From assembly GCF_007860075.1 (NCBI RefSeq), contig NZ_SJPP01000001.1, positions 2,273,980 to 2,337,979 of the forward strand: DNA of 64,000 nt. The letters are read 5' to 3'. The DNA comes from Symmachiella macrocystis (GTDB lineage Bacteria > Planctomycetota > Planctomycetia > Planctomycetales > Planctomycetaceae). Shown in pieces: positions 1,119 through 49,238 of the stretch; within the stretch, counting starts at the first letter, position 1; the number at the start of each line of letters is the position of its first letter. The position numbers were made by a program, and so were the translations under genes. The notes under the pieces were generated by a model. It searched no databases. It saw nothing but the letters and a program-made list of their open reading frames with translations, and was not told where the DNA came from.

Positions 1119-2807
1119 ATGTCTAATACCGAGACTTCCCCTTCCGACGATTCCTTAGATCCGGACGAAGAACTCCGCTTCGCCCGTCTGAATGCCTACA
1201 ACGATGCACTCCATCGCGGCGACTACCAACAGCAGGCGCAATTGAAACGGGACCACCCCGACTTGGTCGAGTTGCTCAAATGCCTCGAGGGATTGGATTC
1301 GTTAGCACCGCCTGCCGACGATTCATTACAAACGCTGGTCTACTACGAACAGCAGCACACGCAAACCGACCCATCGGCTGACAATGCCGTCCACATAACC
1401 GAGAGCGTTCAATTCCAAACCGGGTTTCCTCGCCCCTTTGGAAAATATGAACTCCAAGCCGAACTCGGCCGCGGCGGGATGGGTGTCGTCTACAAAGCTT
1501 GGCAAGCGGATCTCGGCCGAGCAGTGGCGCTGAAAATGATCCTCTCCAGCCACCTCGCCTCGCACGACGACGTGCACCGATTTTATGAAGAAGCCAAAGC
1601 CGCCGGCGGACTGCGGCATTCGCACATCGTTGCCGTCCACGAAGTCGGACAGGTGCACGGACAACATTTCTTCGCCATGGATTTCGTCGAAGGTCCCAGT
1701 TTGGCCGAAGCTTTGACGAAGCGGATCTATGCTCCGGAAAAAGCAGCGGCATTCATTATCGCTGCAGCACGGGCTATCGACTATCTGCATCAACACGGCA
1801 TCGTGCATCGCGACCTGAAACCGGCAAACATTCTGATCGATCCGGACGGCGAACCGATCGTCACTGACTTTGGATTAGCCAAAGTCTTCAACACCGAAGA
1901 TAACCTCACCCGCACCGGCACCATTGTCGGCACGCCCAGTTATATGGCGCCCGAACAAGCCGCCGGTCAAGCCTCATCGGTGACCGCCGCCAGCGATGTC
2001 TATAGTTTGGGCGCAATTCTCTACGAAATGCTCACCGGTCGCCCGCCGTTTCAGGAACCCAACCCGCTCGATACGTTGGTGCAGGTCCTCGAAGGAGAAC
2101 CGACCTTGCCCACCAAGCTCAACCGCCATATCCCCCGCGATTTGGAACTGATCTGTTTGCGCTGCTTAGAAAAACGTCCCGAAAAACGCTATGCCTCCGC
2201 GACTGCGCTGGCCGATGACTTGGTCCGCTTTCTCAAACGAGAACCGGTCGAAGCGCGGCCGGTGGGACTTGCTTACCAACTGCGCCGCTGGGCGCGCCGC
2301 GAACCGGCATTGGTCTCGCGGTTAGGGGCGCTGTTGTTAACCATCCTCGTCGTGCAGGCCAAGTATTCCTACGACGGATACGATTGGAGCTTTCACCGCG
2401 ACGTGCTGGTGTTGCTCGGATTATGGGGCTTAACGGCGTTCATGTTTCAATGGATGCTCAATCAAGAACACCTCGCCAATTTCGCCCGCTTTGCGTGGTG
2501 CGCGACCGATGCCATTTTGCTGACCATTCTGCTGGCCATCGTCGACCCACCGGTCGGACCGTTGCTGATCGGCTATCCCATGATCATCGCTGCCGCCGGT
2601 TTGTTCTTCCGCGTGCGTTTGGTCGTGTTCACCACAATGGTGACGATCCTCGCCTTCGCCGTGTTCGCGTGGTTGCGCCCGGAAGAAATCGCACTATTCC
2701 ATTACGGCATCATCTATGCCGCCGTCCAAGGGGTCATTGGTTTCGTCATCGCCCACCAAGTCTACCGCGTACGCGTCCTCAATCGGTACTACGATTCGCG
2801 ACAATAG
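1119..2807 (+). CDS. Membrane-tailed serine/threonine protein kinase
   Basis: 562 residues. After an N-terminal arm of about 105 residues comes a Hanks-type kinase domain: glycine loop GRGGMG at 117-122, ATP lysine in VALKM near 139, catalytic loop HRDLKPANIL at 230-239, DFG at 250-252 and APE at 277-279, so it should be active. From about residue 395 the chain becomes hydrophobic with roughly six membrane segments, replacing the usual PASTA or WD40 sensor. The kinase faces the cytoplasm. Planctomycetes carry many such kinases; substrates cannot be predicted from the sequence. The start ATG has only a weak AGG upstream. No neighbouring phosphatase or anti-sigma gene is present. The polytopic tail may sense a membrane or small-ligand signal (inference). 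Confidence 0.93.
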   Translation: MSNTETSPSDDSLDPDEELRFARLNAYNDALHRGDYQQQAQLKRDHPDLVELLKCLEGLDSLAPPADDSLQTLVYYEQQHTQTDPSADNAVHITESVQFQTGFPRPFGKYELQAELGRGGMGVVYKAWQADLGRAVALKMILSSHLASHDDVHRFYEEAKAAGGLRHSHIVAVHEVGQVHGQHFFAMDFVEGPSLAEALTKRIYAPEKAAAFIIAAARAIDYLHQHGIVHRDLKPANILIDPDGEPIVTDFGLAKVFNTEDNLTRTGTIVGTPSYMAPEQAAGQASSVTAASDVYSLGAILYEMLTGRPPFQEPNPLDTLVQVLEGEPTLPTKLNRHIPRDLELICLRCLEKRPEKRYASATALADDLVRFLKREPVEARPVGLAYQLRRWARREPALVSRLGALLLTILVVQAKYSYDGYDWSFHRDVLVLLGLWGLTAFMFQWMLNQEHLANFARFAWCATDAILLTILLAIVDPPVGPLLIGYPMIIAAAGLFFRVRLVVFTTMVTILAFAVFAWLRPEEIALFHYGIIYAAVQGVIGFVIAHQVYRVRVLNRYYDSRQ

Positions 2808-2880
2808 CGGAGGGAGAACGCGGCCTTGGGCTTTAGTCCGTAGACCGTAGGGAGAGCATCGGCAGGCTCGATCCCACTCG

Positions 2881-3546
2881 TTATTTCTTCGCCGCCGCCG
2901 TCTTCAGGCCCGCCACGTAGTTCGCATGGCTTTCCGAGAGTCGCTTCACCAACTGGTCGACGGTATAAATATGACCCGTCGGCTTGTTGAAATTGCGCCC
3001 TTGTTTGATGTTGGAAAGCTGCTGCCCCAATGCCTTGCCGCCGCGTGAGGTGACCATATACGAAAACATCTTGTAGCCATCGGGACCGTTGAGCAAACCG
3101 CGAAATTCCCGCTTGCTCAGCGGCAGCCGCAGAAACCGCTCCAACCGGTCATACGCCGCGGGTGTCTTCGACAGATCGGCCATAAAGACGCGGCCCTTTT
3201 TGGTGCGCAGTTGCCGGACCATGTAATCGTTATCCGGCAACACCTGAGCCAAAATCTCCTTCTGGTCGGTGACCACCCAGCCCATCGACTTCAACTTGCG
3301 AAACACTTCGCGAACCTCCGACTGCGAAATGATATCGCCGTCGCGAAATCCCCGCTTCCGACCGAAATATTTCTCCACGCCTTTGGAAAACACCGAATAC
3401 TTCGGGAAATTTTTGACCGCATCCGCTTTCGGATCAGCCGCTGTTGTCGTGCTTGGGCCAAAGCAGAAAAACGCCAGGAATGTGACGACCAACGGCCGGA
3501 GAGCGACCCGACACAAATATTGTTTTCCGTTCAGCAAGCCCGCCAT
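2881..3546 (-). CDS. Secreted protein of unknown function
   Basis: 221 residues from ATG 3546, chosen because GGGAG sits 7 nt upstream and a signal peptide follows (Arg/Lys region, hydrophobic VVTFLAFFCF core, Ala-Ala cleavage region before DPKAD). Longer in-frame upstream starts would bury this signal. The mature part is Lys/Arg-rich, largely helical and soluble, with segments such as YFGRKRGFRDGDIISQSEV and a C-terminal helix ending in AAAKK. I recognise no family. It reads toward the convergent kinase gene and is followed on its own strand by 73 bp containing a dispersed CCGTAG-type repeat. About 290 bp separate it from the aminotransferase upstream; I see nothing clear in that gap. Confidence 0.7.
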   Translation of the reverse strand: MAGLLNGKQYLCRVALRPLVVTFLAFFCFGPSTTTAADPKADAVKNFPKYSVFSKGVEKYFGRKRGFRDGDIISQSEVREVFRKLKSMGWVVTDQKEILAQVLPDNDYMVRQLRTKKGRVFMADLSKTPAAYDRLERFLRLPLSKREFRGLLNGPDGYKMFSYMVTSRGGKALGQQLSNIKQGRNFNKPTGHIYTVDQLVKRLSESHANYVAGLKTAAAKK

Positions 3547-3838
3547 CACATTTCTCCCACAACGACACACACAATTTTCCAAGACGAGAATCACGCTCAA
3601 AACCAAGGCGCGCGGCGGTACCGCCCGCTGCATCTTCTATCGGCGTGATATCCGCGAAATTGGCCAGAAATTCAGGTCGAAACGCTGCTGATTCGGCATT
3701 CTTTCGCTGCGGCCACTCACAACTATAGCCCACGCATTCCTGCGGCACGCATCAAGCAATTTTGTCTGTTCGCGCGGATGATGCGGTCTGCGAGCAATGC
3801 AGCGGTCGCAACAATTCTGCGGCGGCGAAAAGCGCCGG

Positions 3839-4978
3839 TTACGATGTCGCTTCCAAGGCCGTGCAGAGCTGCGAAATATCATCCGCGTTGGTGTACGCAT
3901 GCGGACTGACCCGCAGATGCCCGCCGCGCGTGTTGAGAATCACACCCTGCTCTCGGCAGCGGCGCTGGATTTCTGGGAGCGGCTCCGTTGTCGGCCAATC
4001 AAAAGCAACAATGCCCGAACGATGCTGCGGTTCGCGGCAACTGACAATCGTCGCCCCGCGCTGAGTGAGCGCATCGCAAAGCTGGTTGCCGACGTCATCA
4101 ATTCGCGAAGCAATCGCTGAAACGCCATATTCGCTCAACAGCGCGAGCGATGCACCGAGCGCCGCGATGCCCGGCATGTTGTACGAACCCCCTTCATACC
4201 GCCCGGCCGTCTCGCGCAGATCAAAACGACTGTCGCTAAACTCCCCCGCTTGTTTGACGCTGTTCCAACCCACGCCCAACGGCCGCAATCGCTCAAGATG
4301 TTCATGCCGCATATAAAAGACGCCCGCCCCCTCGGGACCAAGCATCCACTTGTGCCCATCAGCAGCGAGAAAATCGACTTCAGTACGCGCGACATCCAAA
4401 GGTTGCACGCCCAGCGCTTGAATCGCATCGACGAACAACAAGGCCCCTCGACTGTGCGCCAACTCCACCAACACATCCAAATCATTTCGCCAACCGGTGG
4501 CATACCCCACCCAACTGACCGACACGATCCGCGTCCGCTCATCACAGGCAGCTGCGACCGCTGTTAGATCCAAACGCTCCCGCTCCGTCGCCACTTGCCG
4601 CACTTCGACACCGCGGTCCGCCAGGTTCAACCAGGGATACAAGTTCGTGGGAAACTCACCCGCAGGGAGCACAACGTTGTCCCCTGCCCTCCAAGGAAAT
4701 CCTTCTGCAACAAGATTGACCCCTTCGGTCGTATTGTGAATCAGCGCAATCTCTGCCTGTTTGGCATTTAATAATTTGGCAGCAGTGCGGCGGACGCGTT
4801 CTACCTCTTTGCGCCACGCACCCCAATTCGCATCCCCATTCTCCGTCACATCCGCCGCCCACTCCTGAAGCACCGTCTGCGCAGGCAAACTTAGCGGCGC
4901 TACGGCTGCATGGTCAAAGTACGCCCACTTCTGTGTCACCGGCATTTGCGAGCGCAGTTGTTCGTACCATTGGGGCAT
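3839..4978 (-). CDS. Class V aminotransferase, cysteine desulfurase-like
   Basis: 379 residues with the fold-type I PLP architecture: NTTEGVNLVA near residue 82, the cofactor aspartate in LLFVDAIQALG (D184), and the Schiff-base lysine K210 in DGHKWMLGPEG. The C-terminal domain ends with the RVSPHAYTNADDI motif of this family. It lacks the GSACSSG-type cysteine loop of IscS/SufS, so it is more likely an isopenicillin-N-epimerase/CsdA-like enzyme than the main Fe-S sulfur donor; the second desulfurase-like gene at 14485-15645 does carry that loop. Substrate unknown. It ends 290 bp before the secreted unknown on the same strand and appears monocistronic. Confidence 0.87.
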   Translation of the reverse strand: MPQWYEQLRSQMPVTQKWAYFDHAAVAPLSLPAQTVLQEWAADVTENGDANWGAWRKEVERVRRTAAKLLNAKQAEIALIHNTTEGVNLVAEGFPWRAGDNVVLPAGEFPTNLYPWLNLADRGVEVRQVATERERLDLTAVAAACDERTRIVSVSWVGYATGWRNDLDVLVELAHSRGALLFVDAIQALGVQPLDVARTEVDFLAADGHKWMLGPEGAGVFYMRHEHLERLRPLGVGWNSVKQAGEFSDSRFDLRETAGRYEGGSYNMPGIAALGASLALLSEYGVSAIASRIDDVGNQLCDALTQRGATIVSCREPQHRSGIVAFDWPTTEPLPEIQRRCREQGVILNTRGGHLRVSPHAYTNADDISQLCTALEATS

Positions 4979-5102
4979 GAGATGAAATGATGACTCCCAT
5001 TACGGCGGCGAACACTTTAACGGGTGCTACTGCGGGCTTACCCAGCAGTGTGATACACGTCACCCATAAACCACGAACGGACAAGCTGCCAACGGCACAC
5101 CA

Positions 5103-6377
5103 TCACGCACCAACCGTCGGCAGCACATACGGACCTTGGGGAATCACCGCCACTTGAGCCTCAGGTCCATATTCCGTCAGCGACGAGGCGACCGCTTCTT
5201 CAACGGTGGCGGCCGACTCGACAAACAAACCGTTGATCGTCTCGGCCGGCAGGCCGTCGGTGACAAATTTGACTTTCGCTTTGCGGCGGACCTTGGCCAG
5301 TTCCTCGAGTTGCCATTGGTCCATCACGAAATACTCTTTGCCCAAAATCCGTTCCATGAAGATCTCCAACGACGCATTGTCGTCGAACAGACTTTGGAAT
5401 TCCGGACTGCCAATCCCTTCGGTCAAACTAGCGGCAATCACAATCGTCCCTCCCTGCTTGACGATCGGCAACGCTCCGGTCAGCCCTTTGACCGCTTGAT
5501 AAAACGTCGTATCCAGCGGATAACCCGCGCTGCAGGTCACGACCACATCCACCGCTTCGGGCAGCGGAGCTTTCACATGTTTTTCGATGAACGACACACC
5601 TGCCAGAAACGCCTCTTCCATGTCGCCGGCCACCACCGACGTTACGCGACGCTCCTTATCGAGCGTAACATTCACAATGAAATCGCAACCCGCTAATTTG
5701 GCGATCAATGTGTTCTCTTCGTGCACCGGATTGCCTTCCAAGAAACCCTGGTCTGCTTTGGGGTGCTCTAAAAAGTCCGGTCCGTGCCAAATCTTGACCG
5801 TTTCCAACGCAGCAATCCCGGGGCAAATCAATTTGCGGCCCCCCGAATACCCGGCCATCAGATGCGGTTCGATCAATCCCGTGGTGATCTTCAGTTCCGC
5901 TTCGATATACCGCGTATCAATCCAAGCCGGCACGCCCCGCTCGGTGGTTCCCAGATATGTATGTTCGTCGAGCACCTTGCCGTGATGATTCTCGCAGCAG
6001 TAATTCTCCGCGACGTCCGCTCCGACCAATTCGACCAACTCGTCCCCTTCGTTGGGACGATGCAGACCCGTTGCCACAAGAATCGTGATCCCCTCGCGCG
6101 GGACCCCCGCCTGTTCGATCGTCGAAAGCAATTCCGGCAAAATCTGTTTGTTCGGGACCGGCCGCGTAATATCACATACGACAATACAGGCCGTCTGTTT
6201 CCCACGGGCCAACTCTGAGAGCGGCTGAGTGCCGATCGGGTCCGCAATCGCCGCCCGAATCGCCGCTTGAGGATCTGTCAGCGGCTCCGCATCCTGGGTC
6301 TGCAACAGCCCCACCACCCGGTCATCCGGCAATTCCACATCCAGCCCGGTCTTCCCATAATCGAGTTGCACACGCAT
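5103..6377 (-). CDS. larA: LarA-family nickel-pincer 2-hydroxyacid racemase
   Basis: 424 residues from ATG 6377 (GGGA 9 nt upstream; the TTG two codons earlier is less likely). It matches lactate racemase LarA (DUF2088): CDITRPVPN near residue 70, ATGLHRPN (catalytic His) near 103, and [19 protein letters not shown] (second His plus the lysine that binds the nickel pincer cofactor) near 172-190. The family interconverts D/L-lactate or related 2-hydroxyacids using NPN made by LarB, LarC and LarE; none of these is in the window. Because the next gene upstream on the strand is a D-tartrate dehydratase, a hydroxy-diacid or sugar-acid substrate is plausible, but that is inference. Specificity cannot be read from the sequence. 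Confidence 0.85.
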
Positions 6378-6497
6378 CAGCAAACATCCCGTTCATTTAT
6401 TTGAAAAGGTTTTAAAACCTATGGAGACAATCAAAAACACTCACGTAATTATACGCGTACGCGGCCACGAACGACCAGCATGCGATCATTGAGCCGA

Positions 6498-7673
6498 CTA
6501 CACCCTCCCCGCCACCAATGCCGCAAACTCCAGCATCAACTCCGCTTTCAGTTCCATTCCAATCCCCGGCACGTCCGGCAATGTGACGTACCCGTTCTCG
6601 ATCGGGCTGTCGTCGGCGAAACCGCCGAACGGTTGGAAGACTTCTGGATACGACTCGTTGCCCCCCAGTCCCATCCCCGCAGCGATGTGTAGTGCGAATT
6701 GGTGTCCCCCATGGGGAATGCAGCGACGACGGCTCCACCCCTGCTCGACCAACATCTCTAGTGTTCGCAAATATTCCACCAAGCCGTAACTCAGCACCGG
6801 ATCGAATTGCAAAATATCGCGATCCGGCCGCAGTCCGCCGTGCCGTATCAGATTGCGGGCATCGGCCATCGAAAACAAATTCTCGCCCGTCGCCAACGGC
6901 CCCTCATACGCTTCCGCGACCTGAGCATGTCCCGCGTAGTTCAATGGTCCGACTGGTTCTTCGTACCACTTGAGCCCCAACGGCGCCAGTGCCGCAGCAT
7001 AGTCCAAAGCAGTTTCGACATCAAAACGCGCATTCGCATCCACCGCCAAATGCTTGCCGTCCCCGACGACTTCCAAGGCGGCTTCGATGCGTCGCAGATC
7101 CTCGTCCAAAGTAGCGCCGCCGATTTTCATCTTGCAGGCGTCATACCCCATGTCGAAATAGCGCCGCAGTTCTTCTTGCAGTCCGCTTCGATCTTTGCCG
7201 GGATAATAATATCCCCCTGCGGCATAAACATAGACCCGCTCGTCCGCTTGTGAGTTGTTGTAGCGCTCCGACAACAGACGATACAACGGTTGGCCGGCGA
7301 TCTTGGCGACTGCATCCCATAGCGCCATATCCACCGTGCCGACTGCTACGCATCGCTCGCCATGTCCGCCCGGCTTTTCATTCGCCAACATCACCTGCTG
7401 CGCTTTGAAGGGGCAAATGTTGGATTGATCGTCCGTCAGCAATGCCTCAGCATCGGCGGCCAACAAGCGCGGAATGATCCGCTCGCGCAAGATCCCTCCT
7501 TGTGCATAACGGCCGTTGGAATTGAAACCGTAACCGATCACCGGTTGACCGTCGCGCACGACATCAGTCACCACCGCTACGCAAGATGTCGTCATCTGCG
7601 AAAAATCGATCACGGAATTGCGAATCGACGACTTCATAGCCGCCGTCCGCTCCAATACTTGGATGATTCGCAT
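6498..7673 (-). CDS. tarD: D-(-)-tartrate dehydratase (enolase superfamily)
   Basis: 391 residues from ATG 7673, which has AGGA 8 nt upstream; upstream in-frame codons lack this spacing. The sequence follows the enolase-superfamily tartrate dehydratase closely: IRNSVIDFSQMTTS at the N-terminus, NEKPGGHGER, VYVYAAGGYYYPGKD, the general-base KMKIGG motif, metal ligands in AVDAN, WYEEP and ATGENLF, and the catalytic His in RCIPHGGHQF. I compared this from memory with Bradyrhizobium TarD, and nearly every signature matches. The reaction is dehydration of D-tartrate to oxaloacetate in the cytoplasm. It lies between the LarA-like racemase downstream (120 bp) and a beta-hydroxyacid dehydrogenase upstream (83 bp), all on one strand, suggesting a hydroxyacid catabolic unit. 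Confidence 0.9.
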   Translation of the reverse strand: MRIIQVLERTAAMKSSIRNSVIDFSQMTTSCVAVVTDVVRDGQPVIGYGFNSNGRYAQGGILRERIIPRLLAADAEALLTDDQSNICPFKAQQVMLANEKPGGHGERCVAVGTVDMALWDAVAKIAGQPLYRLLSERYNNSQADERVYVYAAGGYYYPGKDRSGLQEELRRYFDMGYDACKMKIGGATLDEDLRRIEAALEVVGDGKHLAVDANARFDVETALDYAAALAPLGLKWYEEPVGPLNYAGHAQVAEAYEGPLATGENLFSMADARNLIRHGGLRPDRDILQFDPVLSYGLVEYLRTLEMLVEQGWSRRRCIPHGGHQFALHIAAGMGLGGNESYPEVFQPFGGFADDSPIENGYVTLPDVPGIGMELKAELMLEFAALVAGRV

Positions 7674-41829: not shown

Positions 41830-41858
41830 TTGACACGGCCTTGATTGTCCGTGATAAT
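41830..41858 (+). promoter_or_regulatory. Near-consensus sigma-70 promoter for the HPr-rel-A cluster
   Basis: TTGACA at 41830-41835 and GATAAT at 41853-41858 with the ideal 17-bp spacer. Transcription would begin near 41865, leaving a leader of about 105 nt before the ATG at 41970. It is the clearest promoter in the window. The rest of the 519-bp gap between prs and the cluster (41451-41829) holds no other feature that I can support. Confidence 0.75.
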
Positions 41859-41969
41859 TCCAGGAACATAATATAGGCTGTATGGGGCAAATCTTAAGCA
41901 ATTTGGGCAGTCTTCGTCATGCATGGGGCCAATTTTGTGTGACGTGCCGGGTAAGAAGGTGACCAAACG

Positions 41970-42239
41970 ATGATCAACAACAACGACGAAAATCACGAAA
42001 TCGATATGACACCACAAGACGCTCATCGCGCGAAACGACGGCAGTTGCTCAAACGTGGAGCATTGCTGGTTCCAGCAATTGTCACGCTGCACGCACGTCC
42101 CGCGCATGCCCAAACCAACGGATCGTATGGCTACAATAGCTACACGATCGTGAATGGATCGCCGGAGTCGGTCAATGGCTGCTGGCACACGCAAGAAGAG
42201 GCTCGCGAACACGATGAGAGACGAAGAAGTCGTCGCTAA
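41970..42239 (+). CDS. Small Tat-signal protein, candidate substrate of the HPr-rel-A system
   Basis: 89 residues. A charged N-terminus ends in KRRQLLKRGALLVPAIVTLH (twin Arg R23-R24, LLK) and an AHA cleavage site before Q48, so a Tat-type export signal is likely; the mature product would be 42 residues (QTNGSYGYNSYTIVNGSPES, VNGCWHT, then a tail ending DERRRSRR) with a single Cys (C71) and Ser87 near the end. AAGG lies about 11 nt upstream of the ATG. It is transcribed just ahead of the PqqD-like chaperone and the kinase-nucleotidyltransferase. A modified peptide or small exported protein acted on by that pair is the natural hypothesis. No homologue is recognised. Confidence 0.7.
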   Translation: MINNNDENHEIDMTPQDAHRAKRRQLLKRGALLVPAIVTLHARPAHAQTNGSYGYNSYTIVNGSPESVNGCWHTQEEAREHDERRRSRR

Positions 42240-42295
42240 TCCCTTATTTTTGCAGTCCCTAAATCTCCATGCGTTGGCCCTGCTGGCCGGTTCCT

Positions 42296-42589
42296 ATGAC
42301 ACAGCCTCATCAACTGTGGACCGCTTCGCGCTTGGGAACATTTCAATGGCGCAATTGGGATGAAACCGAAACCATTCTGTTTCATACCGCCTCAGGCGAT
42401 ACGCACGTCTTGAGTCCCCCCGCCGCTGTAGTCCTCAAAGAATTGGAACACGCCAGTTTGCCCTTCGAGGAAATTGTGAAACGCGTTACCATCTCACTGG
42501 GTGATGTGCACGACGACAGCTTGGCCGATCAGGTCGAGCAACTCTTGGACGACTTCGACCAACTGGGGCTGATTGAGCCGGTTACGTGA
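42296..42589 (+). CDS. PqqD-family peptide chaperone, HPr-rel-A type
   Basis: 97 residues from ATG 42296; the ATG at 42269 is also possible (neither has a strong ribosome site), and the family core begins with the Trp after the later one. Core: LWTASRLGTFQWRNWDETET, ILFHTASGDTHVLSPPAAVV (the G.TH.L signature) and a winged-helix end closing in LDDFDQLGLIEPV. PqqD-like (RRE) domains bind leader peptides and present them to modifying enzymes. This subgroup is named for occurring beside HprK-related kinase A. Its stop overlaps the start of that kinase gene by 4 bp, which implies coupled translation. Confidence 0.85.
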   Translation: MTQPHQLWTASRLGTFQWRNWDETETILFHTASGDTHVLSPPAAVVLKELEHASLPFEEIVKRVTISLGDVHDDSLADQVEQLLDDFDQLGLIEPVT

Positions 42590-44673
42590 AGCTAAATGAT
42601 CTTTCCATAACACAGTTAGTCCAACGGGCAGCCAGTGAGGGCCTGTGTTGGCGCGTGGGACCATTCATTGTCCGCCTGCGAACGCCGCTTCCAGACATCG
42701 TCGAGAACATCGCCTTCCTTTATGCCGGCTTCCCGGTACTGGATGGCGCAGACTACGCCGATCATGAAGTCGTGGTCCTTCCCCGCGGTATGACGGGAAA
42801 ACGGTTCAGTATCATCGCCGATGGGCGCGCGATCTATCCTTCGGAACCGCGCGCCATTGCTGTGCCGTTGTTGGAATGGACGCTCAACCTCTGTGTGTTT
42901 CACCAACCGAGCACCAATTTGATTCTGCACGCCGCTGTCGTAGAACGAAGCGGCTGTGCGCTGATCATGCCGGCAGTCCCCGGTTCGGGCAAAAGCACTT
43001 TCTGCGCCGCACTGGCGCATCGCGGTTGGCGATTGCTCTCCGATGAGGTGGCGATCTTGCGGCGGAGCGACGGCCGCGTTGTGCCGGCGACCCGGCCCAT
43101 CGGCCTGAAAGACGCTTCGATCGACGTGATCCAACAATTCGCCCCTGAGGCGGTGCTCGGCCCCAGTTGGCCCGGCACGGTAAAAGGGACAGTCGCGCAT
43201 TGCCTACCCAGCCCAGAGAGCATCCGTCGTGCGGGGGAGACCGCCCAGCCGCGCTGGTTGATGTTTCCCGCATATCGCCACGGAGCTGAAACGGAGCTGA
43301 CACCAATCTCCAAACCGCGCGCCTTGGTCCATGCCGCTGCCGATTCCTTCAACTACAGTGTGCTTGGCACCGAGGGCTTTACAGCTTTGTCGCGCTTGGT
43401 CGATGCGTGTGACTGTTATGAACTGACTTACAGTGATTTAGAAGATGCGGTGACCGTGGTCGGGGAATGGACCCAGTTAGTTGGCTCGACACAGCCCGAG
43501 TCTACTCCAGAGCAATCGATACCGGCCGAGACACCGCCTGTCCACACGGGGGCTACCCAGGAGAGTCCCGCAAAAATCGGCGCATCGCCGCTGCGGATAC
43601 GCGAATTGCTGTTGGGAGCGCTGCGGCACCCCGAAGATCTAGAACAGCTCTCGCCCGCGGAATGGGATGTGTTGTTACGTGCGGCGCGCGTGACCAGTTT
43701 GCTTTCCAGTTTGGCGGTCCGTGCTGCCGAATTGGAATTGCTGGAGAAGATCCCCGCCGGTCCCCGTCCGCACTTGGAAGCCGCGCGAACCGTTGCCATT
43801 CAACATGAGCGGATCGCCTTGTGGGAAGTCAAACGGGTTGAACGCGCGCTCGTGGAGATGGAAACACCTGTCGTCTTTCTCAAAGGCGCTGCCTACCTCT
43901 TGGCCGGATGCCGCTTTTCAAGGGGGCGCGTGATTACTGATGTCGATATCTTGCTCCCTCGACAAAACTTGGCCGCCGCCGAAGAACAGTTTCGCGACTG
44001 GGGATGGATCGCCGATGAGGAAAGCCCGCTCGATGAACAATACTACCGCGAATGGTTGCACGAGTTGCCACCGCTGACACACTTCCGTCGCGGCACGTCG
44101 CTCGATGTGCACCATACGATTTTGCCGCGAACTGATCGCTTAGAGGTGCGGCCCGAATTGTTGTTCGACGAGGCGGTCCCTTACGAAGAGGGGAACGATC
44201 AATTCCTGGTGCTCTGTCCGGCGGACATGTTTTTACATGCGGCGACGCATCTTTTCCGCAACGGCGATTTTTCCAAAGGCCTGCGGGATTTGGCCGATTT
44301 ACGGGGCATGCTGGAGGAGTTTGCGACGACCGAGAACTTTTGGCGACAACTCGTGACCCGCGCTGAACAATTGGACTTGGCCGGTCCTTGTTATTACGCC
44401 TTGCGGTATACGGCCCGGTATTTCGATTGCCGGATCCCGGATGATGTCAACGCGGCGACGCGGGCCTGGAAACCGGTTTGGCCGCCGCTGATGGTGATGG
44501 ATCGCCTGGTCGACGCAGCTGTCATCCCCCGCTATCTAGATCGCATCGACCACCGGCGTGAGCGCGCGATCGGGATTTTAGCGCGGTTGTATCTGCCCCG
44601 TTTGCGTGTCGCAGCGTCGCCATCGTTTTGGAAAAAGCGCGTGCCACAGTGGTTTGGGCCTCGCAAACCCTAG
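42586..44673 (+). CDS. HprK-related kinase A fused to a nucleotidyltransferase domain
   Basis: 695 residues, GTG start in a GTGA overlap with the chaperone gene. Residues 1-300: HprK-related kinase A, with FIVRLRTPLPDIVENIAFLY, P-loop AVPGSGKST at 130-138, and LLSDEVAIL near 150-158 carrying the HprK-type acidic residue. A Pro/Glu/Thr-rich linker (about 303-333) joins it to a NTP_transf_5-like nucleotidyltransferase: PVVFLKGAAYLLAGCRF with K433, VITDVDILLP with D452/D454, and HFRRGTSLDVHHTILP. These two activities are normally separate genes. In lasso-peptide clusters an HprK-like kinase phosphorylates the peptide C-terminus and a nucleotidyltransferase extends this; here no lasso protease or cyclase is present. 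Convergent with the PQQ gene, 14 bp away. Confidence 0.88.
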   Translation: MKLNDLSITQLVQRAASEGLCWRVGPFIVRLRTPLPDIVENIAFLYAGFPVLDGADYADHEVVVLPRGMTGKRFSIIADGRAIYPSEPRAIAVPLLEWTLNLCVFHQPSTNLILHAAVVERSGCALIMPAVPGSGKSTFCAALAHRGWRLLSDEVAILRRSDGRVVPATRPIGLKDASIDVIQQFAPEAVLGPSWPGTVKGTVAHCLPSPESIRRAGETAQPRWLMFPAYRHGAETELTPISKPRALVHAAADSFNYSVLGTEGFTALSRLVDACDCYELTYSDLEDAVTVVGEWTQLVGSTQPESTPEQSIPAETPPVHTGATQESPAKIGASPLRIRELLLGALRHPEDLEQLSPAEWDVLLRAARVTSLLSSLAVRAAELELLEKIPAGPRPHLEAARTVAIQHERIALWEVKRVERALVEMETPVVFLKGAAYLLAGCRFSRGRVITDVDILLPRQNLAAAEEQFRDWGWIADEESPLDEQYYREWLHELPPLTHFRRGTSLDVHHTILPRTDRLEVRPELLFDEAVPYEEGNDQFLVLCPADMFLHAATHLFRNGDFSKGLRDLADLRGMLEEFATTENFWRQLVTRAEQLDLAGPCYYALRYTARYFDCRIPDDVNAATRAWKPVWPPLMVMDRLVDAAVIPRYLDRIDHRRERAIGILARLYLPRLRVAASPSFWKKRVPQWFGPRKP

Positions 44674-48160: not shown

Positions 48161-49111
48161 CTAACGCCCGATCGCCTTACGGAGCTGATTGATGTATTTG
48201 GGGATCTCGGTTTTTGGTTCGCCTTTGCCTTCGTACTCCAACACCACATACCCGCGATATCCGGCATCGTCCAGAATCTTGATAATCCGATCGAGGTCCG
48301 CCGGTTCTTGCGGTCGGTCGGCTGGTTTCATGTCGACCTTGATTTGCGCGTTGACGGCATACGGCGCGATCTTGGCCAAATCGCCATACGGGTCCGCCGT
48401 GCGGAAATTGCCGCTGTCAAAGTTCACACCAAACCAAGGCGAATCTTGCACGCGTTCGCAGATTGCCAACAGACCGTCCGCCTCGGCTGTGATCCCCCCG
48501 TGGTTTTCGATCGCCAGCACGACCCCCTTTTGAGCGGCATAGTCCAGCGATTCGTTCACGCCGGCGACGCACCGCTCTAAGGCGTCGTCAAACGTCTCCT
48601 CTTGCGGGACATAACCGGCAAAGATGCGGATCACCGGTGCGCCGATGATGGCGGCATAGTCGATCCAGCGTCGCGTATGTTCCAACGACTTTTGCCGGGC
48701 TTCTCCTTCCGGCAGGCAGAAGTTGTTGTTGATCGCTGTGCCGGAAATATCCAACCCCAAGCGAAACGCCTGTTCCTTGAGCGAGAGCAAATACGCGGTG
48801 TCAATTTCTGCAGGGTAATTCGCAAACCAATAACTGGTCAGTTCACATCCATCGAGATTGAGCGACGCCGCCTCGGTGATGAAATCGGGCATCGTCATTG
48901 TGGGGTTTTTGAAATCCAGATACTTGCGGTACGAATAGGCCGCCAAGCTGAGCTTCATATACGGCTTGCCAGTTCGCACGATTGGTTTGGCGGCCGTGAC
49001 TTCTTGAGAGAGGACCGTGCCGCCGGCCACCGCTGCCCCGAGGGCCAAACTTTGTTTCAGAAAATGGCGGCGGTCCGGATGGGTATCGTGCGGTTGTGGT
49101 GTGGCTGTCAT
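48161..49111 (-). CDS. Tat-exported sugar phosphate isomerase/epimerase-like TIM barrel
   Basis: 316 residues from ATG 49111 (AGGAG upstream). A Tat leader (RRHFLKQSLALGAAVAGGTV) precedes an AP-endonuclease-2 type TIM barrel: LDGCELTSYWFANYPAEIDT, HTRRWIDYAAIIGAPVIRIF, VVLAIENHGGITAEADGLLA, GVNFDSGNFRTADPY and GYRGYVVLEYEGKGEPKTEI. The metal-binding E, D, H and E residues of the fold are in place. Members isomerise or epimerise keto-sugars (xylose/hydroxypyruvate type). Substrate unknown; the export signal puts it in the periplasm, as with many planctomycete paralogues. Confidence 0.87.
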   Translation of the reverse strand: MTATPQPHDTHPDRRHFLKQSLALGAAVAGGTVLSQEVTAAKPIVRTGKPYMKLSLAAYSYRKYLDFKNPTMTMPDFITEAASLNLDGCELTSYWFANYPAEIDTAYLLSLKEQAFRLGLDISGTAINNNFCLPEGEARQKSLEHTRRWIDYAAIIGAPVIRIFAGYVPQEETFDDALERCVAGVNESLDYAAQKGVVLAIENHGGITAEADGLLAICERVQDSPWFGVNFDSGNFRTADPYGDLAKIAPYAVNAQIKVDMKPADRPQEPADLDRIIKILDDAGYRGYVVLEYEGKGEPKTEIPKYINQLRKAIGR

Positions 49112-49238
49112 GGGATTGCGAGACTCCTGTGCGAGATGGGCCGGCAGTGATTCGTAAGGAACCGGCGGAATCACTGCACTATACCGCGCCACGGGTCTCG
49201 CCGACCACCATCGCCGAATACCGCTGCGGGTAAAAAAG

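Follow-up and report, generated by a model that had tools for sequence, protein, structure and literature searches.

The LPP clusters of Bacillota encode an RRE, an HprK-like kinase, an NTP transferase, a SipW-like peptidase and an MsbA-like transporter (PMC13381572, 2026). LppK phosphorylates Ser3 in the core of the linear LPP precursor multiple times, and nothing visible changed in LPP expression when lppN was deleted (PMC13381572). The LPP leader carries the motif YxxPxVLxHQxIxFETxxS, in which the proline lies 12 residues from T-1, and LPPs are, according to the authors, restricted to Bacillota (PMC13381572). A PqqD-like RRE, an HprK-like kinase and a nucleotidyltransferase also occur in the clusters of phosphorylated lasso peptides (paeninodin type), together with a B2 protease, a macrolactam cyclase and a lasso leader. 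The SynChlorMet cassette contains an HprK-like and PqqD-like pair (ScmC/ScmD), and in the DUF2063-associated RRE systems an export signal is carried by the precursor peptide, DUF2282 (PMC12710340).

The enzymes of the HPr-rel-A system are already named in annotation pipelines. The curated models name the enzymes only; the leader protein described here is covered by no NCBIfam or Pfam model and is labelled "hypothetical protein" in two annotated plasmid records. No papers using the name HPr-rel-A or HprK-related kinase A were found in the literature searched, which mostly excludes subscription papers and bioRxiv preprints. Nothing related was found there that joins twin-arginine, PqqD and RiPP, and no name for the candidate substrate was found in the papers and family libraries that were searched.

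A three-gene cassette behind one promoter was identified on the plus strand of a planctomycete genome, within the window (the whole 64,000-nucleotide stretch analysed, contig positions 2273980-2337979). We read it, with a probability of about 0.62, as a leader-guided linear peptide-phosphorylation system in which ORF A would be the precursor and its leader would be both the RRE site and the Tat signal. Its features are as follows.

41830..41858, plus strand: sigma-70-type promoter TTGACA-17-GATAAT, consensus at 11/12 positions
41970..42239, plus strand: ORF A, candidate precursor/substrate, 89 aa, with leader residues 19-47 and mature residues 48-89 (sequence, conservation, dN/dS)
42024..42110, plus strand: system-specific, Tat-like leader, residues 19-47, with xxPxI in the h-region and predicted cleavage after A47 (profile match, geometry)
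42111..42236, plus strand: mature peptide QTNGSYGYNSYTIVNGSPESVNGCWHTQEEAREHDERRRSRR, with candidate modification residues T49 and S52 (Ser/Thr position in relatives)
42296..42589, plus strand: ORF B, PqqD-like RRE (HPr-rel-A system PqqD family peptide chaperone; TIGR04353, PF05402), its start backed by G294 and G295
42586..44673, plus strand: ORF C, HprK-related kinase A fused to an NTP_transf_5 nucleotidyltransferase, 695 aa (TIGR04352, PF14907)

Gene organization, enzymes and relation to known systems

The near-consensus promoter of the preliminary description is retained, with identical hexamers and 17 spacing, in the other two genomes of the genus, G294 and the diverged G295; in G295 the surrounding upstream DNA has largely changed. 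The end of ORF B is overlapped by the start of ORF C (GTGA). The closest flanking genes, mutS, prs and a PQQ-repeat gene, are all on the opposite strand. No B2 protease or cyclase was found among these neighbours, in agreement with the absence noted earlier. The nearest Transglut_core3 gene found lies about 0.9 Mb from the cassette, its frame being about 517 aa long, and a lasso cluster with a distant B2 was rejected.

ORF B scores 53.5 bits with TIGR04353 (cut-off 35) and 24.5 bits with PF05402 (cut-off 23.4). The kinase half of ORF C (residues 21-292) scores 307 bits with TIGR04352 (cut-off 200), so that the PqqD-like chaperone and HprK-related kinase named earlier both exceed the curated NCBIfam HPr-rel-A cut-offs. 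The nucleotidyltransferase half (residues 357-614) scores 168.8 bits with PF14907 (NTP_transf_5, cut-off 31.2), and the interdomain linker spans about residues 295-340. The kinase residues H115, K136, D153 and E154 are invariant (72/72), as are K476, G477, R491, D495, D497 and D550 of the nucleotidyltransferase (71/71). The His-Lys-Asp-Asp set of lasso kinases (PMC9266682) corresponds here, as mapped by eye, to His-Lys-Asp-Glu. The predicted kinase model has the PEPCK/HprK fold and matches PEPCK and HprK structures. In the model of the fused protein the nucleotidyltransferase half is poor, probably because kinase and nucleotidyltransferase rows were mixed in the alignment, and the fold of this half was not used.

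An NTP_transf_5 gene is adjacent in 71/74 loci from the proteobacterial search described below, adjacency being our own criterion for a cassette. The fusion of the two enzymes, which headed the preliminary description, does exist as one 695-aa frame, but it is peculiar to the three genomes of the window's genus and was rejected as the key feature: it is absent from all 74 of these loci and from G374, G350, G063 and G185. At two loci of the same family (L040 in G374, L041 in G350) each of the two enzymes has a gene of its own; the fusion therefore arose near the window's genus.

Like the LPP systems, the cassette has a discrete RRE, an HprK-like kinase and an NTP transferase without a cyclase, and, as candidate precursor, a linear peptide whose leader is conserved and whose C-terminus varies strongly; precursors measure 35-200 aa, and some clusters have several. 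Leader removal is of the signal-peptidase type (predicted here), with 12 residues from Pro to the cleavage site. It differs from them in its twin-arginine leader, in which the Tyr/Trp of [Y/W]xxP is mostly replaced. Set against the LPP motif, LLVPAIVTLHARPAHA of the window keeps the Pro, the aliphatic residue and the +12 cleavage geometry, but lacks the Tyr and HQ/FET. The SipW-like signal peptidase and MsbA-like transporter are missing from the window cassette, where mutS, prs and the PQQ-repeat gene are the neighbours. The hosts are Proteobacteria and Planctomycetes rather than Bacillota, and the kinase and nucleotidyltransferase are fused in the window's genus. The phosphorylated lasso peptides share the PqqD-like RRE, HprK-like kinase and nucleotidyltransferase, whereas their B2 protease, macrolactam cyclase and leader are all missing here. 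With the SynChlorMet models the scores are far below the cut-offs (ScmC, 23.6 of 125 bits; ScmD, 17.1 of 100 bits), and the window cassette has no radical SAM gene. The export signal of the DUF2063-associated systems is Sec, not Tat, and their enzymes are unrelated (PMC12710340). The cassette is neither an LPP nor a lasso member, because the full LPP leader motif, the LPP peptidase and transporter, and the lasso B2 and cyclase were not found in it. The earlier proposal of peptide phosphorylation or nucleotidylation with no cyclisation step is supported: a close relative of that reaction, in which an RRE and an HprK-like kinase act on a linear, uncyclised peptide, has been demonstrated experimentally in Bacillota (PMC13381572).

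The leader and its occurrence beside the enzymes

ORF A had been described as an 89-residue protein with a Tat-type leader and a mature part of about 42 residues. The twin Arg is at residues 23-24, AHA at residues 45-47, and the mature part has 42 aa. Compared with G294, dN/dS is 0.08 for the whole gene; the leader alone gives 0.022 and the mature part 0.149. ORF A is therefore real coding DNA, and a chance ORF is ruled out by dN/dS and conservation. The twin Arg, a moderately hydrophobic core and A-x-A are all present, and the position of A-x-A/G is fixed in most relatives. The genome encodes TatC (153 bits, above the cut-off). The curated Tat models PF10518 and TIGR01409, which are short and uncalibrated here on known Tat signals, gave no match to ORF A and matched 1/32 relatives, weakly. 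The motif and the presence of TatC suggest that the leader of ORF A is a Tat signal.

The leader consensus, RRR[FL]xKxGxxAxPVxLTLxSRxALA, is nearly without gaps. Column 17 is Pro in 27/44 and Gly in 12/44, about one third having Gly or Ala for Pro, and the Pro and the final residue of A-x-A are 12 residues apart. The aromatic residue of [Y/W]xxP is missing from most HPr-rel-A leaders, Leu being at that position in the window; complete [Y/W]xxPx[I] motifs occur in two relatives of the planctomycete phylum, L016 (YLTPAI) and L128 (WIPPAI). RREs are reported to recognise W/Y/LxxP-type sequences (PMC12710340), and the xxPx[ILV] stretch is a candidate RRE site set within the Tat hydrophobic core.

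Profile A5, which contains proteobacterial leaders only, gave one significant match in the full six-frame 7.6-Mb genome, ORF A (42030-42116, 3.5e-7; next match, 0.245). The leader was likewise the one significant match in G294 and in G295. A natural control is a xylose-isomerase-like TIM-barrel protein of the window (48161-49192, minus strand), whose Tat-like signal is of the ordinary kind and which gave E 1.9 with the leader HMM. Because the proteobacterial profile picks ORF A alone genome-wide, the leader is more than a generic Tat signal, and the latter account is ruled out. Over 170 family genomes the top four A5 matches (33-39 bits) are in four of the five cluster-bearing genomes, and the best non-cluster match (27 bits) is within a 509-aa frame; in the fifth, G374, the leader in the cluster scores 0.0086, among generic matches. 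Over 294 phylum genomes just three matches were obtained at E<=1e-4, each beside PqqD, HprK-like and NTP_transf_5 genes. Two of these adjoin kinases far below the TIGR04352 cut-off, and such HprK-like clusters were sampled in the window's phylum only. The weaker leaders of G063 (0.0074) and G185 (2.2e-5) were scored by a locus-only search with the proteobacterial HMM and are unreported at the genome-wide threshold.

A search of genome contigs with kinase alignment A1 gave 74 loci, mostly from Beta- and Gammaproteobacteria. With seven planctomycete loci, including the window, the total is 81 HprK_rel_A loci, of which 78 are assessable, L096, L111 and L113 being cut by contig ends. Immediately upstream of pqqD, an ORF was matched by the leader HMM in 72/81 loci, and in four more (L071, L072, L080 and L116) the upstream leader ORF was recognised by eye. 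Absence of the small gene from relatives that keep the other two had been named beforehand as a refutation; the test did not refute, the short Tat-leader ORF being present in 78/78 assessable loci and directly upstream of pqqD in 76. The other two are rearranged: two leader genes are directly downstream of pqqD in L056, whereas in L090 the leader gene appears to lie about 13.5 kb off on the same contig, and a transposase-like ORF is now upstream of pqqD. The leader HMM was seeded from the regions under test and was cross-validated in halves. At E<1e-3, 63/64 held-out loci were matched, with three matches elsewhere per half; these loci were taken from the already-matched set, and the figure gauges how general the leader is, rather than how often it accompanies the enzymes. 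A second leader match at G295 -1361 was discarded as false: its frame belongs to the adjoining prs region and has no leader. Since almost every bacterium that has the RRE and the two enzymes also has such a small leader gene next to them, ORF A is very probably the peptide modified by these enzymes before export.

Mature parts

The leader is conserved, whereas the mature parts are hypervariable (10-236 aa). Cores of about 13-53 aa occur at the seven planctomycete HPr-rel-A loci and in the genome of L090. Those of the window, G295 and G447 are alike near the N-terminus (GSYGYNSY, TYGINGY and GSMGINYG, respectively). When the mature parts were compared for a conserved residue, as proposed earlier, every relative (68/68) had a Ser/Thr among its first 8 mature residues, against 74.5% of later windows, a contrast weakened by kinship. 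No target residue common to the mature parts across phyla was found. Ser/Thr near the mature N-terminus fits Ser3 of the LPPs. The C-terminal "SCWxSF" of some gammaproteobacterial partners, spotted by eye, was rejected as a target site; it is unconserved, the window having GCWHT and G295 TRWRT. Tandem leader genes with differing mature parts are present in L072, L056 and L016, as in RiPP clusters.

In most Proteobacteria the mature part is a folded domain, about 150 aa long, that opens with CxxPSGxxSGNxS...CxGxSPGYW. AlphaFold2 models this domain well (pLDDT about 95 across most of residues 80-214), and no fold match for it was found in the PDB. The partner at L045:5028-5669 is one such case, with a confidently modelled mature domain, the C..PSG..SGN.S and SPGYW signature and no PDB fold match.

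Proposed function and alternatives

Gene order, the system-specific leader, purifying selection, intact catalytic residues and the lack of a cyclase or B2 are directly established. From them we infer RRE–leader binding, phosphorylation, the target residue, the order of events and export. The PqqD-like RRE would grip xxPx[ILV] within the leader's hydrophobic core, presenting the peptide to the fused enzyme. The HprK-like half would then phosphorylate, perhaps repeatedly, a Ser/Thr near the new N-terminus (T49 or S52), and the nucleotidyltransferase half may attach a further nucleotidyl or phosphate-linked group; its reaction is uncertain because of the lppN deletion result. RRE binding could hide the Tat signal until modification is complete, as a proofreading step. 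Modification in the cytoplasm followed by Tat export is proposed because the twin-arginine leader replaces the LPP peptidase and transporter; signal peptidase would cleave after A-x-A, 12 residues past the proline. Several points stand against this reading: the aromatic residue is mostly missing, the Pro is often replaced, the curated Tat models are silent on ORF A, the mature parts have no target residue in common across phyla, and the folded proteobacterial partner of about 150 aa is unlike a typical RiPP core.

Tat substrates are known to use signal-binding chaperones, and in ORF A conservation peaks in the leader and is low in the mature part. With ORF A as cognate partner, the RRE, kinase and nucleotidyltransferase could be a Tat escort or control export, PqqD delaying it and the enzymes regulating binding, while the mature part stays unmodified. 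We consider this unlikely: two intact catalytic domains exceed the needs of an escort, it is the core that these enzymes modify in LPPs and in phosphorylated lasso peptides, and Ser/Thr is always near the cleavage site. HprK-type kinases classically phosphorylate HPr, and the mature part is unconserved across phyla, as expected if ORF A were an ordinary Tat-exported operon partner and the true target an HPr-like protein or small molecule. Leader specificity across whole genomes and 78/78 co-occurrence, including the rearranged loci, make this highly improbable, and the Tat-like neighbour at 48161-49192 scores poorly with the leader HMM.

The phosphate might instead be an intermediate that the nucleotidyltransferase or an unlinked enzyme (e.g., of surface-polysaccharide synthesis) uses to attach a sugar or lipid; the product would then be a glyco- or lipopeptide of the cell surface. 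Exopolysaccharide/PEP-CTERM genes adjoin the cassettes at L045 (ManC), L059 (Poly_export, PEP-CTERM), L108 (UDP-sugar dehydrogenase) and L129 (Poly_export), which echoes the capsule-locus setting of LPPs (PMC13381572). Such neighbours are not universal: the window cassette has none, and several others adjoin housekeeping genes (e.g., prmC and dnaE). This outcome seems distinctly doubtful.

One conserved leader with variable partners in Proteobacteria and Planctomycetes makes the HPr-rel-A system testable. If leader-guided phosphorylation is correct, LPP-type phosphopeptide biosynthesis reaches beyond Bacillota, and a single leader both recruits the enzymes and directs export by Tat. For a broader form of it we would give even odds: a widespread Gram-negative class in which one sequence is RRE site and Tat signal, phosphorylation or nucleotidylation is checked before export, and cores range from 10 residues to folded domains of about 150 residues without a PDB match.

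Two further arrangements were observed. Locus L128 (G206, 2754-6528), a radical-SAM variant of the system, contains a 55-aa Tat-leader ORF (mature part about 10 aa, WIPPAI) followed by radical SAM/SPASM, PqqD, HprK-like and NTP_transf_5 genes. In L016/L129 (G133), two tandem short Tat-leader genes with differing Gly/Pro-rich mature parts precede the PqqD, HprK-like and NTP_transf_5 genes, and the cassette adjoins a polysaccharide export gene.
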